From positions 1 to 64,000 of the forward strand of contig DASYSS010000047.1 in NCBI GenBank assembly GCA_036003045.1: 64,000 nucleotides of DNA, read 5' to 3'. Below the pieces are notes generated by a model. The model saw nothing but the letters and a program-made list of their open reading frames with translations. It ran no database searches and was not told where the DNA came from. Each line of letters starts with the position of its first letter. Positions within the stretch are counted from its first letter, which is position 1. The DNA comes from Gemmatimonadaceae bacterium (lineage in GTDB: Bacteria > Gemmatimonadota > Gemmatimonadetes > Gemmatimonadales > Gemmatimonadaceae). The position numbers and the translations under genes are program-made. Shown in pieces: positions 46,595 through 52,882 of the stretch.

Positions 46595-46604
46595 CATTCG
46601 TTCG

Positions 46605-46697
46605 GGATACCGGGAAACCGGGATACCGCGACTGCGGAAAAATAGTCGTCGCGTCGCGCCGTTCCGGTATCTCGGTGCCCGGTCATCCGGTAACCCG
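46605..46697. repeat. Inverted GGGATACCGGG-type clusters after the pilin cassette
   Basis: GGGATACCGGGAAACCGGGATACC (46605-46627) is answered by reverse-sense units CCGGTATC, CGGTGCCCGGTCATCCGG and TAACCCG (46663-46697). A core of about 35 bp separates them. It ends 3 bp from the stop of the last cassette gene. Confidence 0.7.
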
Positions 46698-46700
46698 TTT

Positions 46701-47282
46701 TTACGGGGTCGTCATGGTGAACGTTACGGTGATCGAGTAGTTCCCCGGCTTGTCGGTCAGCCAGTGAGCGACAGGACGAATGTAGATCGGTACGGTCGGT
46801 GAACCGGGGCCCGCGGAACCCGTTGTGAGCGTCGTGGCGGTCGTGGTGACCGACGTCGTCGGCCCGGCCGGCGTGAGACTCCAGATCAAGTCACTCGCCG
46901 GCTTGCTGCCCCACGCGCCGGCGCTTGCCGTCCAGAACGCGAAGTTGGCGTTCACTTGAAGCGTCCAGGAGCGATTCGCCATTACGCTGAGCGAAACCGG
47001 CGTGAAGGTCGCGACGCCCGTGGCCTGGTCCATGTCGGTCGTGGCTGCGGTGTACGTCGAGGAAGTGGGCGAGACGGAAAGCTGCAGCAGCGCCGGATTC
47101 ACCATCGTCGCCGGCTGGTCGAGCGTCACCGTGGGCGAACACTTCCCCGATTGGCCCGAGACGCTGCAGGTCAGAACGGTCTGCGCGGCGACGGCTGGCG
47201 TCGACAGCGCGAGCGCCGCCCAGATCGCGAGCGAAGCGATCACGAAACGCACCAGCCCCGAGAGGCGGCCACCGGCGCTCAT
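46701..47282 (-). CDS. Secreted pilin-like protein (cassette gene 5)
   Basis: The 193-aa protein has a signal peptide ending near VAAQ (about residue 34). The mature part starts with two Cys (TCSVSGQSGKC, likely a disulfide) and is a beta-rich, Ser/Thr-rich domain ending DKPGNYSITVTFTMTTP. Its length, early disulfide and final beta strand resemble chaperone-usher pilins or spore-coat-U domains. It shares WTLQVNA, KPASDLIWS and the PGxYxIxVxFT ending with 51442-51996, so they are paralogues. Its ATG overlaps the barrel gene's stop (ATGA). Pilus formation is inference. Confidence 0.7.
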   Translation of the reverse strand: MSAGGRLSGLVRFVIASLAIWAALALSTPAVAAQTVLTCSVSGQSGKCSPTVTLDQPATMVNPALLQLSVSPTSSTYTAATTDMDQATGVATFTPVSLSVMANRSWTLQVNANFAFWTASAGAWGSKPASDLIWSLTPAGPTTSVTTTATTLTTGSAGPGSPTVPIYIRPVAHWLTDKPGNYSITVTFTMTTP

Positions 47283-50074
47283 GGAATCCCCCGATCTTTG
47301 TCGCGCTGTTCCGTTTGCTGTTTCGTCTTGAAGATCCGAATCGGTCGCGTCCTGACCGTCACGACGAAACGCTGGCGTCCCGGGGTCGCTCCGATCTCGA
47401 CCGGCGGGATGTCGTCGATCAGCAGCGGCTCACTCGAGCCCTCGAGCTCCATCGTGAGCGTGTAGCGGCCGGCGGGCAGCGCGTCGAAGGACGCGTGTTG
47501 CGAGCCGTCGGCGCGCGCGATCCACTCGCGGCCCGTCGAGTCGCGCAGTGAGAACGTCGCCACTCCGACGCGCACCGACGGCACCGTGCCGTCGGCCAGC
47601 TTCGCGACGTCGATGCGTACGTCGAGCGCGGTGATCGGAACGACCCCGAGAACGAGCGGGTCGCTCTCGCGGTCGAGAAGCCGGGGACTTTGCTCCCAGG
47701 CTTTCGGCAGCGATCGCTCGTCCACCTCGGCGCGCGTCGAAGTCCCGCTCGTCATACGGAAGACGCCGTTGGCGTCGGTGACGGCCGTCTCGGAGCCACG
47801 ATGCACGACGATGCCGGGCACGCCCGGTTCGCCCGGATCGCGGACGCCGTTCGCGTTGCGGTCCTGGTAGACCACGCCGGTTTCCTGACGCCGGTCGAAG
47901 GCACTGATGTTCGACGAGCGCTCGACCTTGAGCGTGATAATGGTGTGCAGCGCGCCGAACTGGTCGCGCGCCGTGCCGCGCTCCGCGCCGAGCGCGATTC
48001 GCAGTGAGCTGAAGACGTCGACGTCGAGCTCCGCGCGCGACGTCATCGTGGTCGCTGGGCCGAACTGTAGATGCTGCGCGGCGGCACTCATCGTCCACCG
48101 CGGAAACCGCGGCCAGAACTGAAATCGCTCGACGTGCGCGCTCCAACTCGACTGCGGCGGACTCGACATCGTGCCGAAGCTCGCCGTCTCGATCGAACCG
48201 CCGACGCCGACGACGCCCCGCGCTCCGACATGGTCGATGCGCAGCCTGTTGACCACGCGGTTCGAGCGGCCGTCTTCGACCGAGACGACCGAGTCGGCGA
48301 TGCTCTGCGACACGTTCGTCAGTCGCGTGTCGGCGGCGATGTCGAAGCCGGCCGCCAGGAAACGCGCTCGTAGACCGTAGTCGAGCTGGGTCGACCCGAA
48401 CCCGCCGAGCGAATCGCGCGACGTGATGCCGGAGCGCATTACGTCGGCGCCCAGCGAAAACATCGAGAAGAGGTCGTACGTCGGCGAGAGCGACCAACCC
48501 GTCGAACCGATCGACGTACGCCCCGATTCGCCGTCATGCGTCGACCAGTACGTGACGTTCGTGCGCACGCGTCCCAGCGCGCGGTCCGCTCCGAGCGAGA
48601 TCGCGTCGCGCGCCGGGGCGAACGCGAGCGTTCCACCCGGCGCGTGCACGGCTCGAAACGCGAAATCGCCTCCCGCCATCGGTCCCCTGAAATCCGCTTC
48701 GGCGCCGATGCCGCTTCCCTCGCTGTACGAGCGGCTCGCAACCGCTCCCGACGCGAACGCGTTCGTCCACGGCTGCGTCTCGAGCATGACGCCGCCGGCG
48801 TCGACGCTGCGAACGAGGTACGTCGAATCGCGAAGATGCGAGAAGAACGCCGTGAACATGCTGGAACCGAGTTGCTGGTGCGCTCCCGCGGCGAAGAGCG
48901 TGGGCTTGTTCCACGTGCCTTGCGAGACGAGAGGCCCCGCGGCCAGGAAGTCCAGCCGCTCCTCGGCGGCGCCAAGCCGAAGCGAGGCGCCGCGCCCGAA
49001 CACATTCTGACCGGCGAGGTCGCTGAGACTCAGGCCGGTCGTTCCGATCGTCGTTCCCCAGCCCGGGGTGCCGACGGTCAGGAAATTCGATTGTGAGTTG
49101 TAGCCGAGCGACGACAGAGCGCGGCCGTTCACCAGATCGTTCGGCGTGGGCGTCGAAAAGCGACCGGTGACACTGAGCTCGTCCGTCAACGGACCGTCGA
49201 TCGCGACCGATTCGACGGACCGGCTCGGAAGACCGGCGCTCATCACCGAACCCGCGCCGAGCGTGACGACCGGACCGGGGCGCCGGCCGCTTCTCAGAGG
49301 GTCGGTCACCTCGACGATCGCCGACGCGACGGCGCGCTGGCCGGAGCGGGTGCGCGCGATCATCGTCACCGCGACGTCGCCGAGATCGGCGAGCAGCGGG
49401 ATGGTGGCGGTCACCGACCGTTCGATTGATTCGCCGCGCGCCAACACGAGAGCCGGTGCGCCTTCCAATCGCGCGTTCCACGTGCGCGGCGCGTCGATCT
49501 CGAGGTCGAGCGTGTCCTGAAGATTGCCGGCGTTGAGAATCGTGAACGAGAGCTCCAGCCGATCGCCGGCGTGGGCGCCGCGCATCGGACGAGTGGGCGT
49601 GACGTCGATGCGCGCGATGCGCGCGATGGCGACGTCGATCGGCGCGCGCACGACTGCTCCGCCGGCGGCGACGAAGCGAACGTATCCGGCTCGCGTCAGC
49701 CCCGCGTTGGCCGACGTGGGCACGCCGACGGTGAGCACGACCGCCGCCCCGCGCGCGAGGGAGCCGGTGCGCGTGCCGAGCAGCGGAACGTTGCCGCTGG
49801 CGACGACTTCGTAGCTGACCTTTCCCGCGCCCGCCAGCTCCGCGGGCACCGGCACGTTCACGATTCGGTACGATCGCGGCGCCGCGGCGGCGACGACGAC
49901 CGCGCTCACTTCGCGTTCGTCGCCCGGATCGCGAGGCGTCGAGTCGACGCGCATCACGGTTCTTCGGTCGACGCTCGCGGCGAGCGTCGCGCGCGGCTGT
50001 TGCGCGTTCGCCGTACCGGCTCCGAGAGCCGCCACCGCGAGAGCGATCTGCACGAAACGCGGACGCCGGCTCAT
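47279..50074 (-). CDS. Large outer-membrane barrel-like protein, usher-like position (cassette gene 4)
   Basis: From the ATG at 50074 it is 931 aa. The signal peptide ends around TANAQQ (residue 23). Residues of about 25-245 are beta-sandwich-like, with a NEW3/CARDB-type segment (LSFTILNAGNLQDTLDLEI). About 265-760 is a run of alternating strands with frequent aromatics and Gly, typical of an outer-membrane barrel. About 765-840 holds an SdrD-B-like segment, YQDRNANGVRDPGEPGVPGI, and a beta-sandwich domain ends it. It lies where an usher would in a chaperone-usher operon, but I see no clear usher signature. It overlaps its neighbours by 4 bp on each side. It may secrete or anchor the pilin-like proteins. 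Confidence 0.7.
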   Translation of the reverse strand: MSRRPRFVQIALAVAALGAGTANAQQPRATLAASVDRRTVMRVDSTPRDPGDEREVSAVVVAAAAPRSYRIVNVPVPAELAGAGKVSYEVVASGNVPLLGTRTGSLARGAAVVLTVGVPTSANAGLTRAGYVRFVAAGGAVVRAPIDVAIARIARIDVTPTRPMRGAHAGDRLELSFTILNAGNLQDTLDLEIDAPRTWNARLEGAPALVLARGESIERSVTATIPLLADLGDVAVTMIARTRSGQRAVASAIVEVTDPLRSGRRPGPVVTLGAGSVMSAGLPSRSVESVAIDGPLTDELSVTGRFSTPTPNDLVNGRALSSLGYNSQSNFLTVGTPGWGTTIGTTGLSLSDLAGQNVFGRGASLRLGAAEERLDFLAAGPLVSQGTWNKPTLFAAGAHQQLGSSMFTAFFSHLRDSTYLVRSVDAGGVMLETQPWTNAFASGAVASRSYSEGSGIGAEADFRGPMAGGDFAFRAVHAPGGTLAFAPARDAISLGADRALGRVRTNVTYWSTHDGESGRTSIGSTGWSLSPTYDLFSMFSLGADVMRSGITSRDSLGGFGSTQLDYGLRARFLAAGFDIAADTRLTNVSQSIADSVVSVEDGRSNRVVNRLRIDHVGARGVVGVGGSIETASFGTMSSPPQSSWSAHVERFQFWPRFPRWTMSAAAQHLQFGPATTMTSRAELDVDVFSSLRIALGAERGTARDQFGALHTIITLKVERSSNISAFDRRQETGVVYQDRNANGVRDPGEPGVPGIVVHRGSETAVTDANGVFRMTSGTSTRAEVDERSLPKAWEQSPRLLDRESDPLVLGVVPITALDVRIDVAKLADGTVPSVRVGVATFSLRDSTGREWIARADGSQHASFDALPAGRYTLTMELEGSSEPLLIDDIPPVEIGATPGRQRFVVTVRTRPIRIFKTKQQTEQRDKDRGIP

Positions 50075-50586
50075 GGCGTGCTCACGTTGACCGTCATCGC
50101 GATCGTCGTCCCGTACGACGGCGCGGTGTCGGTCCAGTCGAGGATCATGCGGAGCTTGACGCCGGACGAGAACGAGTCGCCCCTGTTCATCGTCGCCGCG
50201 ACGATGGTGCGCGCCGGATCCACCGCGCCCGCACAACTGCTGGTCATCGACTGCCAGGGCTTCGACGCGTCGCTCGGCTGCCACATCAATTTCGAGATCG
50301 CCTTCGCACCGCCGAGCGTCGCGGTCGCGGCGCAAATCTCGACCGTGACCGTGTGACTCTTGCCCGACGGCCCATTCGCGAGCGACACGTTGAACGAGAT
50401 CGTCGGACCATCGATGTAGCCCGCGATATAGTCAGCGAAGCCGGGCTGGGCGAACGTCGTGGTCGAGCCGCCAGTGACGCTGAGGGTCGTCGTCTGTGTC
50501 TGCGCGCGAAGCGCCGGCGCTTGAACGCCGATCGCGGCCAGAAGTCCAAGGCCGAGGACCGCCGCGCGTGCGGCGCTCCGGGTCAC
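50071..50586 (-). CDS. Secreted pilin-like protein (cassette gene 3)
   Basis: From GTG 50586 it is 171 aa. The signal peptide ends around LRAQT (residue 29). The mature part is beta-rich with two Cys (EICAATATLG and SSCAGAVD) and ends in the strand YGTTIAMTVNVSTP. The fold looks like the other two pilin-like proteins, but direct similarity is weaker. The GTG overlaps the chaperone stop (GTGA), and its own stop overlaps the barrel gene's ATG. A much longer frame to 51207 exists but only covers the chaperone gene in another frame. Confidence 0.65.
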   Translation of the reverse strand: MTRSAARAAVLGLGLLAAIGVQAPALRAQTQTTTLSVTGGSTTTFAQPGFADYIAGYIDGPTISFNVSLANGPSGKSHTVTVEICAATATLGGAKAISKLMWQPSDASKPWQSMTSSCAGAVDPARTIVAATMNRGDSFSSGVKLRMILDWTDTAPSYGTTIAMTVNVSTP

Positions 50587-51422
50587 GGGATATCCAGTTC
50601 CACCTGCCCAGCGGCGATCTCGGCCCCCTCGTAATCGAGGAGTGCAAGTAGCACGTATCTCCCCGAAGGAAGACTTGGAAGTGCGACGCCGAGGCGCCTC
50701 GTCGCGCCGGGAAGCGTGGGGAATTCGGGAATGTCGATCTTCGAGACGACCGAATTGTCCGGCCGTCGAATCTCGACGGCGCCGTGGGCCATCGTCTGCC
50801 GTGCGCCGGTGTTCTTGTACGTGATGTCGAGCTGGCGAGACCGCACGTTGGACCGCGCGCTCAATTTGCCGCTCGAGATCGCGGGCTTCGCATCGACGAC
50901 CCCGACGTCCGTCACCTCCGCGATGAGCGGAGTTTCCGGCTCGACGTACACCTTCACGCCGTACCGCACGCTGTATTGCACGGCGGACGACTGCGCGGTC
51001 CGCGGCGGTGGAGGATTGTCGATGAATAGAATGGCATAGCAGCCATGACCGATCGCGGCCGCGCTGTCCACGGAAACGCGAAGCGTTTGAACCGAGCGCG
51101 GCGCGAGCTGCAGCACCGACGGGAACACCGTCACATGCGCGCCGCACGACGTCGGGAGCGTTCCTGTGGGATAATACCGATTCTCGCCGACCTCGCTGCG
51201 GTCCCAATCCTGGATGGTGACCGTCGCGTTGGCCGGCGTGATGCCGCGGTTCGCCGCGTGAAAGGTCGTGGTGACTGACCCGCCGGGCTTGAGCGGTACG
51301 TGCAGCTCGAGCTCGTCGACGGCGATCTGCGCGCCGGCGACGTTGGAGAGCGCAACGAGCGCGCCGGCGAGGGCGATGAACCGCCCAGGCCGGCGCGCTA
51401 TGCGTGACATGCGAGAATCCAT
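50583..51422 (-). CDS. PapD-like periplasmic pilus chaperone (cassette gene 2)
   Basis: From the ATG at 51422 (AGGAG upstream) it is 279 aa. The signal peptide ends around VAGAQ. The N-terminal domain reads like a PapD-type Ig domain: LHVPLKPGGSVTTTFHAANRG, VTIQDWDRSEVGENRYYPTG, and FPSVLQLAPRSVQTLRVSV with the conserved P, L and Arg pattern. A second Ig-like domain ends QVELDIP. Such chaperones hold secreted pilin subunits by donor-strand complementation. It lies between two pilin-like genes. Confidence 0.75.
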   Translation of the reverse strand: MDSRMSRIARRPGRFIALAGALVALSNVAGAQIAVDELELHVPLKPGGSVTTTFHAANRGITPANATVTIQDWDRSEVGENRYYPTGTLPTSCGAHVTVFPSVLQLAPRSVQTLRVSVDSAAAIGHGCYAILFIDNPPPPRTAQSSAVQYSVRYGVKVYVEPETPLIAEVTDVGVVDAKPAISSGKLSARSNVRSRQLDITYKNTGARQTMAHGAVEIRRPDNSVVSKIDIPEFPTLPGATRRLGVALPSLPSGRYVLLALLDYEGAEIAAGQVELDIP

Positions 51423-51441
51423 TCCCGCGCTCCTGAACTGA

Positions 51442-51996
51442 TTACGGAGCGACGAGCGTGAACTTGACGTCGATCTGATACGAGCCGGGGACGTCAGTCG
51501 CGATGTTGTACGACGTCTTGTAGAACACACCGACCGGCGCGCTGGCCGTGGTCGGGCCGCCCGAGGTCATGTCGGTCGGCGTCGTCGTGAGCCCCACGTA
51601 ACCGCTACCGTTCGTGTTCGACCAAAGCAGGTCGCTCGCCGGCTTGGCGTACGGGCCGGTGAACGCGGCGGTCGCCGCGCTGATCTGCACCTTGTAATTG
51701 CGGTTCGCCGAAACGGTGTACGTCGGACCGTTCGTCGGCATCTGAATCGTGCTCGACGTGTAGTCCGCCATCGTCGTCGGCGCGTTCAAGCTCATGGCCG
51801 TTCCCGCGCCCGTGAAGCCGCTCATGTTCAGCGTGAGCAACGACGGAATCGTGAACGAGTGCGTCGAGGTCACGACGCAAGGCGCCGGGGAGGCCGCCGT
51901 CGAATTGATCGAGCAGCTACCCGTCTGGGCCGCCGCGATCTGTGCACTGATGGCAACTGCGCAGGCAGCAGCGCCTGCAAAGGCCAACTTCCGCAT
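51442..51996 (-). CDS. Secreted pilin-like protein (cassette gene 1)
   Basis: From the ATG at 51996 (GGAG upstream) it is 184 aa. The signal peptide ends around IAAAQT (residue 25). It has an early Cys pair (SCSINSTAASPAPC), a Ser/Thr/Gly-rich beta domain with YKVQISAATAAF and KPASDLLWSN, and the ending VPGSYQIDVKFTLVAP. It is a paralogue of 46701-47282, and the first gene of the cassette suggests the main subunit. It is 19 bp from the chaperone start. Confidence 0.7.
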   Translation of the reverse strand: MRKLAFAGAAACAVAISAQIAAAQTGSCSINSTAASPAPCVVTSTHSFTIPSLLTLNMSGFTGAGTAMSLNAPTTMADYTSSTIQMPTNGPTYTVSANRNYKVQISAATAAFTGPYAKPASDLLWSNTNGSGYVGLTTTPTDMTSGGPTTASAPVGVFYKTSYNIATDVPGSYQIDVKFTLVAP

Positions 51997-52227: not shown

Positions 52228-52262
52228 AAAAAAACGGGAGCCTATGTCTCGGCTCCCGTTTC
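52228..52262 (-). terminator. Rho-independent terminator after the 52340-52777 lipoprotein gene
   Basis: On the minus strand AACGGGAGCC (52260-52251) pairs with GGCTCCCGTT (52242-52233) and seven T follow (52234-52228). It also separates this gene from the pilin cassette promoter. Confidence 0.85.
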
Positions 52263-52339: not shown

Positions 52340-52777
52340 CTACGTGGAGCGGTTGTATATGAACTGGCTGCCCCCGAACACGACCGTCAGGCGCGTTCCC
52401 TTTACAGATCCGGCGAAGGAGACCGTCCCGCCGCCGGTCGTCTGGACGAAGTTGATCTGCTGCTGCGCGATCGTGTACGTGCCGGCGATCGTGGTCACGG
52501 TCGTGGACTTCGTGCCGTCGGCGAGCAGAGTGACCGTGTAGACGCTGATCTCTGACCACGTGCCGTCCGATCCGATGGCAATGGTGTCCGAGGCCAGGTC
52601 GAACTCCTGCGTCGTCGTGACCGTCGCGATCACCGGCAGGGGCCCGCCGTTGATCGTCGACAGCGCGAAGGATCCGGCGACGTTCGTGTCCGTCGGATCG
52701 AGGCTCAGGGAAGAGTCTTCCGTCGAGAGGCACGCAGCCACCAACAGGGGGACCAGCAGCATCGCAATGCGCCGCAC
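52340..52777 (-). CDS. Small lipoprotein, beta-rich, lipocalin-like layout
   Basis: From GTG 52777 (GGAG upstream) it is 145 aa. The signal peptide ends in a lipobox LVAAC (about residue 16). The mature part alternates short strands with Thr/Val (FALSTINGGPLPV, TWSEISVYTVTLLADG, GTYTIAQQQINFVQTTGG), like small lipocalin-type domains in this phylum. A frame reaching 52876 exists, but its first 30 residues are translated tRNA. The function is unknown. Confidence 0.65.
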   Translation of the reverse strand: MRRIAMLLVPLLVAACLSTEDSSLSLDPTDTNVAGSFALSTINGGPLPVIATVTTTQEFDLASDTIAIGSDGTWSEISVYTVTLLADGTKSTTVTTIAGTYTIAQQQINFVQTTGGGTVSFAGSVKGTRLTVVFGGSQFIYNRST

Positions 52778-52800
52778 GAACCGCTCCGCGTAGAGGTGGA

Positions 52801-52882
52801 TGCGAAGGGGGGGACTCGAACCCCCAAGCCTTTCGGCGCCAGATCCTAAGTCTGGTGCGTCTGCCAGTTCCGCCACCCTCGC
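52801..52882 (-). tRNA. tRNA-Leu, anticodon UAG
   Basis: On the minus strand a 7-bp acceptor stem opens GCGAGGG and closes before discriminator A at 52801. The anticodon stem CCAGA/TCTGG holds loop CTTAGGA with anticodon TAG. A variable arm follows, and the T arm is GGGGG-TTCGAGT-CCCCC. The length is 82 nt and CCA is not encoded. It decodes CUA and probably other CUN codons. Confidence 0.96.

Follow-up and report, generated by a model that had tools for sequence, protein, structure and literature searches.

An operon in a Gemmatimonadaceae genome that probably encodes a chaperone-usher-type pilus with a plugless barrel

We analysed a stretch of 64,000 nucleotides (the window) from contig DASYSS010000047.1 of a soil-type Gemmatimonadaceae bacterium (assembly GCA_036003045.1). 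Here we describe an operon on its minus strand, at 51996-46701, which encodes three pilin-like proteins, a PapD-like chaperone, and a large barrel protein in the position of an usher. The five genes, all on the minus strand, are, in order, pilin-like protein A (51442-51996; 184 amino acids), the putative periplasmic chaperone (50583-51422; 279 amino acids), pilin-like protein B (50071-50586; 171 amino acids, with a GTG start), the predicted outer-membrane barrel (47279-50074; 931 amino acids), and pilin-like protein C (46701-47282; 193 amino acids). A gap of 19 bases separates A from the chaperone. The last four genes are coupled by overlaps of stop and start codons: GTGA at 50583-50586 (chaperone and B), ATGA at 50071-50074 (B and the barrel), and ATGA at 47279-47282 (the barrel and C). 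This is the layout given in the original prediction, which was made from the sequence alone. Elsewhere in the window's genome, we found no further pilin, chaperone, or barrel of the same type.

When we searched other genomes for the same gene order, we found that it is kept in dozens of loci, and hence the five-gene order is conserved far beyond chance. A search of the class identified full-length homologues of the barrel in further genera and families, and we counted gene orders in 43 barrel loci of the class, with duplicates removed. The chaperone gene is immediately upstream of the barrel gene in all 33 loci with sufficient upstream DNA. A recognisable pilin gene lies between the two in 23 of these 33 loci, and in 9 of the remaining 10, the gap between chaperone and barrel is 499-593 bases, which leaves room for a pilin. 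Furthermore, a pilin gene lies ahead of the chaperone in 25 of 27 loci and follows the barrel in 30 of 33. Across the phylum, a profile of the barrel matched 69 of 395 Gemmatimonadota genomes, many of them solely via the SdrD_B part of the protein (see below), and roughly 38 to 40 of the 395 genomes had a long match. The barrel was present in none of the four genomes of the same genus that were listed in this search. A scan of named genomes with a single protein gave no match; an alignment of three sequences identified eight loci in named genomes, seven of which are titled Gemmatimonadetes or Gemmatimonadaceae. One locus (L034; G090:C1:2018000-2037500) carries two complete operons in tandem, with strongly diverged barrels, adjoining a groEL-like gene.

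Most of the homologous loci also contain a gene for a small lipoprotein, either between the barrel and the last pilin or divergently upstream (for example at 3702-4145 in L031 and 4134-4583 in L054; also in L059, L052, L114, and others). This family is missing from the window's operon, and one lone copy lies on another contig of the same genome (C99:59642-60058; expectation value (E) = 1.4e-28).

By profile comparison, the product of the second gene is a divergent PapD-family protein. The window's chaperone matches PapD_N below the cut-off (16.6 bits against a cut-off of 23; E = 0.008), and 10 of 13 relatives match it, the best with E = 2e-8. When a profile of these 13 relatives was compared with proteins of solved structure, PapD came first (E = 7e-8), followed by CupB2, YadV, FaeE, CsuC, and EcpB. 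Five of the 13 belong to a sister type, which is described below, and we repeated the comparison with the window's subtype alone. The matches were then CupB2 (4e-4), YadV (3e-3), FaeE (5e-3), and PapD (0.02), and a protein that is not a chaperone, a phage Hoc-like protein, also matched (7e-4). This narrower test supports the kinship with PapD, if not overwhelmingly.

We also compared individual residues of the chaperone, with equivalences taken from sequence alignment. The G1 donor strand of the window's chaperone has the alternating hydrophobic residues AVQYSVRYGVKVYV; in an alignment of 12 sequences this alternation is kept, with one relative (L037) that breaks the third position. In classical chaperones, Arg8 and Lys112 (PapD numbering) anchor the carboxylate of the pilin. 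A Lys112-like lysine (K157) is present in 12 of 12 members of the window's subtype. Two extra cysteines, at positions 93 and 128, are invariant. The proline of strand D1 is P101, which is invariant and aligns with its counterparts in ten chaperones of E. coli K-12; this proline is invariant in all such chaperones (PMC4654587). The carboxylate anchors of Caf1M are Arg20 and Lys139, and archaic and alternative chaperones anchor the carboxylate via Arg89, Tyr196, and Arg174 (PMC4654587). In domain 2 of the window's chaperone, Y256 and R219 are invariant and, judging from alignment rather than superposition, may correspond to Tyr196 and Arg174 of CsuC.

For the 931-residue protein, we built an AlphaFold model from 10 sequences (predicted local distance difference test (pLDDT) 77.8; predicted template-modelling score (pTM) 0.51). 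In the model, the first domain (residues 58-152; 49619-49903) is immunoglobulin (Ig)-like and replaces the usher N-terminal domain; neither the window's barrel nor the members of its subtype match PapC_N, the family for that domain. A second Ig-like domain (residues 156-257; 49304-49609) is predicted from both profile and model: residues 169-241 resemble NPCBM_assoc, which is NEW3-like, with E = 1e-3. There follows a predicted beta-barrel of about 26 strands (residues 269-722; 47909-49270). At the places of the usher's first and second C-terminal domains (CTD1 and CTD2) are an SdrD_B-like domain (residues 731-800; 47675-47884), with a profile match at residues 734-784 (E = 2e-6), and another Ig-like domain that is predicted from the model (residues 807-909; 47348-47656). 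Both profile matches are under the Pfam cut-offs and both are stronger in relatives (up to 2e-8 for NPCBM_assoc and 1e-11 for SdrD_B), which confirms the NEW3-like and SdrD_B-like segments of the original prediction. We discarded NF041740 and the Pfam matches to unrelated Ig-like families as fold-level noise.

When we compared this model with solved structures, FimD and PapC accounted for the seven best matches in the Protein Data Bank (PDB; Foldseek, E = 2e-11 to 1e-9), and these matches span nearly the whole protein. Two C-terminal Ig-like domains, as in ushers, are predicted by the model, and these domains have no sequence match to usher CTDs. The original prediction did not associate the NEW3-like and SdrD_B-like segments with known ushers. 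The predicted domain order of the protein is abnormal and it has no match to the Usher family of Pfam (PF00577), so the finding that would have refuted the original prediction, a clear match to a described usher family with normal domain order, was not made.

The barrel also has no plug-sized insert. Known ushers carry their plug as an insertion between barrel strands 6 and 7 (PMC4356140). In our model, the strands that we count as 6 and 7 (residues 359-369 and 372-381) are joined by a turn of 2 residues, and no barrel loop exceeds about 24 amino acids. Furthermore, none of 41 aligned homologues has a barrel insert of at least 35 amino acids; wherever they carry long inserts, these lie close to the signal peptide.

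The three pilin-like proteins form one family, as found with an iterative hidden Markov model, and they have no meaningful match to Pfam or to sequences in the PDB. Protein A has a signal peptide, an early pair of cysteines, and the ending PGSYQIDVKFT. Early disulfides and a final PGxYxxxVxFT strand had been proposed for all three. The early cysteine pair and the ending are present in A and C; in B, the two cysteines lie mid-protein and the ending is partial. The solved structures closest to a model of A (pLDDT 81.8) include the pilins CfaB, PapA, FimA, and CsuA/B, and the pilin-like proteins likely have an incomplete Ig fold. From its first place in the operon, A is probably the major subunit, and the gene order suggests that C is probably a tip or minor subunit. 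The top two Foldseek matches of the pilin model were the fibrils TLP-1b and TLP-1a, which were solved by cryo-electron microscopy; sequence comparison did not confirm a relation. A weak match that suggested kinship with TLP-1/TLP-2 fibrils vanished with a larger alignment, and we found no paper on such a kinship.

The same class contains sister cassettes, in which a PapD-type chaperone adjoins another kind of barrel (L039, L041, L042, L043, L047, and L051). Where we scanned them (L039 and L043), the subunits were of the DUF4402 family. As in the window, the sister barrel has SdrD_B and Ig-like C-terminal domains, and these two domains are homologous between the two types (E = 3e-25). In contrast to the window's barrel, the sister barrel has a different N-terminal domain, weak matches to the Usher family of Pfam, and a plug-like segment: it aligns in register with the ushers of E. 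coli K-12 over the LGD motif, the plug, and the post-plug region (P = 2e-4). As far as we found, these cassettes have not been described. We considered the full-length match between the two types (E = 2e-19) as proof that the window's barrel descends from ushers, and rejected it: the match rests on the two C-terminal domains, and the barrel alone gives P = 0.14. The link from the window's barrel to ushers is instead made of the shared C-terminal domains, the chaperone family, the position in the operon, and the likeness of fold, and not of direct homology of the barrel.

Related cassettes are found on four Deinococcus plasmids (NZ_CP034185.1, NZ_CP026517.1, and two others), where relatives of the chaperone (E = 2e-35 and 6e-32) and of the barrel (E of about 1e-27) lie near each other. 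In the two plasmids that we read fully, a gene for a subunit-like protein comes first, followed by those for the chaperone, another subunit-like protein, and the barrel. The Deinococcus barrel also has NEW3-like Ig domains at its start and an SdrD_B domain. The Deinococcus chaperones themselves do not match PapD_N; their kinship runs via the window's family. Unlike the window's operon, these cassettes have a longer first subunit and an extra C-terminal Ig-like domain, and their pilins are only weakly alike. Two of the cassettes (L129 2139-7885 and L130 2279-7852) are four-gene cassettes on non-mobilizable plasmids, and all of their genes are annotated as encoding hypothetical proteins. The Deinococcus chaperone also has weak relatives on Streptomyces plasmids and in a Nonomuraea record. 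These hosts do not have such an outer membrane, and these relatives may be other Ig-like surface proteins.

We propose that these genes specify a new variety of chaperone-usher-type pilus, whose barrel has no plug; we give this a probability of about 0.68. It is likely that the system works like a chaperone-usher system. The barrel may belong to the usher family; sequence comparison detected no homology between its barrel part and ushers. The original prediction had offered two readings, a chaperone-usher system of an unusual type or a distinct system that exports surface fibres, and the PapD-related chaperone, the model of the pilin (a weak match), and the FimD/PapC-like model of the barrel support this. 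A literature search, which covered few subscription journals, found no paper on such a system.

The operon shares features with several known pathways. Like the classical systems (FimC/FimD and PapD/PapC), it has a PapD-family chaperone, a Lys112-like residue, and two predicted C-terminal Ig-like domains on the barrel, and those ushers are its best fold match. Unlike in the classical pathway, the barrel has neither the plug nor the usher N-terminal domain. The gene order of the CFA/I operon is chaperone-pilin-usher-pilin, which the window shares. Like the archaic and alternative systems (CsuC/D, EcpB/C, and CfaA/C; PMC4654587), it has a conserved tyrosine (Y256) and arginine (R219) in domain 2 of the chaperone.

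Several observations weigh against our proposal. The pilus is predicted from genes and models. In place of Arg8, members of the window's subtype have E, D, or I, so the classical anchor of Arg8 and Lys112 is incomplete, and Arg89 of strand F1, the hallmark of archaic and alternative chaperones, is absent from 12 of 12 members. None of 10 members of the window's subtype matches the Usher family of Pfam, and none of 118 relatives does so above the cut-off. Direct profile comparison of the barrel to FimD, EcpC, and seven K-12 ushers gave nothing, and no sequence homology was detected between the barrel part and the sister-type barrel. The template-modelling scores of the barrel model to ushers are just 0.20-0.27 (with a model pTM of 0.51), generic barrels such as BtuB and LptD match the model at about 1e-7, and the model has about 26 barrel strands (as assigned by DSSP) versus 24 in ushers. 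Finally, chaperone-usher pilins dominate the list of Foldseek matches to pilin-like protein A, yet every E-value is above 1e-3.

If our proposal is correct, then each pilin-like subunit would reach the periplasm via its signal peptide, where the PapD-like chaperone would hold it with its G1 donor strand (AVQYSVRYGVKVYV). The barrel would take up complexes of chaperone and subunit at its N-terminal and C-terminal Ig-like domains. Subunits would leave through the barrel, without an inserted plug, and would be linked by strand exchange. In the plug's stead, one N-terminal Ig-like domain, most likely the NEW3 domain that adjoins the barrel, would close the resting pore. All ushers are taken to be gated by the plug, and all subunits to be anchored by Arg8 or Arg89. 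If a system without the plug, the usual N-terminal domain, or either arginine is widespread in nature, it would reveal which components chaperone-usher assembly cannot do without. It would also extend the pathway to phyla in which the standard profiles detect almost nothing and explain the apparent lack of such pili in these genomes.

Some of the evidence could also suggest that the barrel does not descend from ushers and is another outer-membrane barrel with Ig-like arms that was recruited beside a PapD-like chaperone, so that the export platform is independent. The barrel part has no sequence link to either ushers or sister-type barrels, it has about 26 predicted strands, and the N-terminal half of the protein differs. 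Because SdrD_B and Ig-like domains are common, domain shuffling could account for the match of the C-terminal domains to the sister type. Against this, ushers are the best fold matches over nearly the whole length, and the Ig-barrel-Ig-Ig order and the operon position are usher-like. Also, an LG(D)...G...G.G segment lies early in the barrel at the place of the LGD...RG of ushers (as judged by eye only). We consider this explanation unlikely. Similarly, it is doubtful that an unrelated barrel with Ig-like arms, with NEW3 as the gate on its N-terminal side, arose as a second, independent platform for PapD-chaperoned pili (or took the usher's place) and spread in Gemmatimonadota and on Deinococcus plasmids.

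It is far less probable that this is a conventional chaperone-usher system that has diverged strongly, with a normal usher whose plug and N-terminal domain escaped recognition. The pilin-chaperone-pilin-usher-pilin order does resemble that of CFA/I- and Ecp-type operons, and sister-type barrels of this class retain a plug-like segment. However, in the model just 2 residues (369 to 372) occupy the plug site, neither the loops of the modelled barrel nor the aligned homologues show a plug-sized insert, and the N-terminal half consists of two Ig-like domains. As to the plug, this explanation is largely refuted. The inference of a polymer from genes and models, the weak fold matches of the pilins, and the uncertain relation of the best single match (the environmental fibril protein TLP-1b) would also fit a barrel that exports or anchors small surface proteins as single units and not as a polymer, with the "pilins" as coat proteins. 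This is very improbable: chaperones of the donor-strand kind normally serve only subunits with a missing strand, the presence of three related subunits in each operon suits a multi-part fibre, and nearly all of the remaining top fold matches are pilins.

Upstream of the operon is a tRNA-Leu (52801-52882), and an HtrA-like gene converges on the operon from the opposite side. Directly upstream, on the same strand and behind the tRNA, is a lipoprotein gene (52340-52876), which is not of the operon-linked lipoprotein family. A terminator-like hairpin (52231-52262, minus strand) lies between this gene and the operon. Terminator-like sites in our hairpin scan were not above those in shuffled sequences, so this hairpin is a candidate by its intergenic position. 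Just beyond the other end of the operon, at 46603-46629, is an intergenic tandem repeat of the 8-base unit CCCGGTWT. A longer array of this repeat lies on another contig of the same genome (C101:28850-28914), and the reversed control pattern gave no such array.

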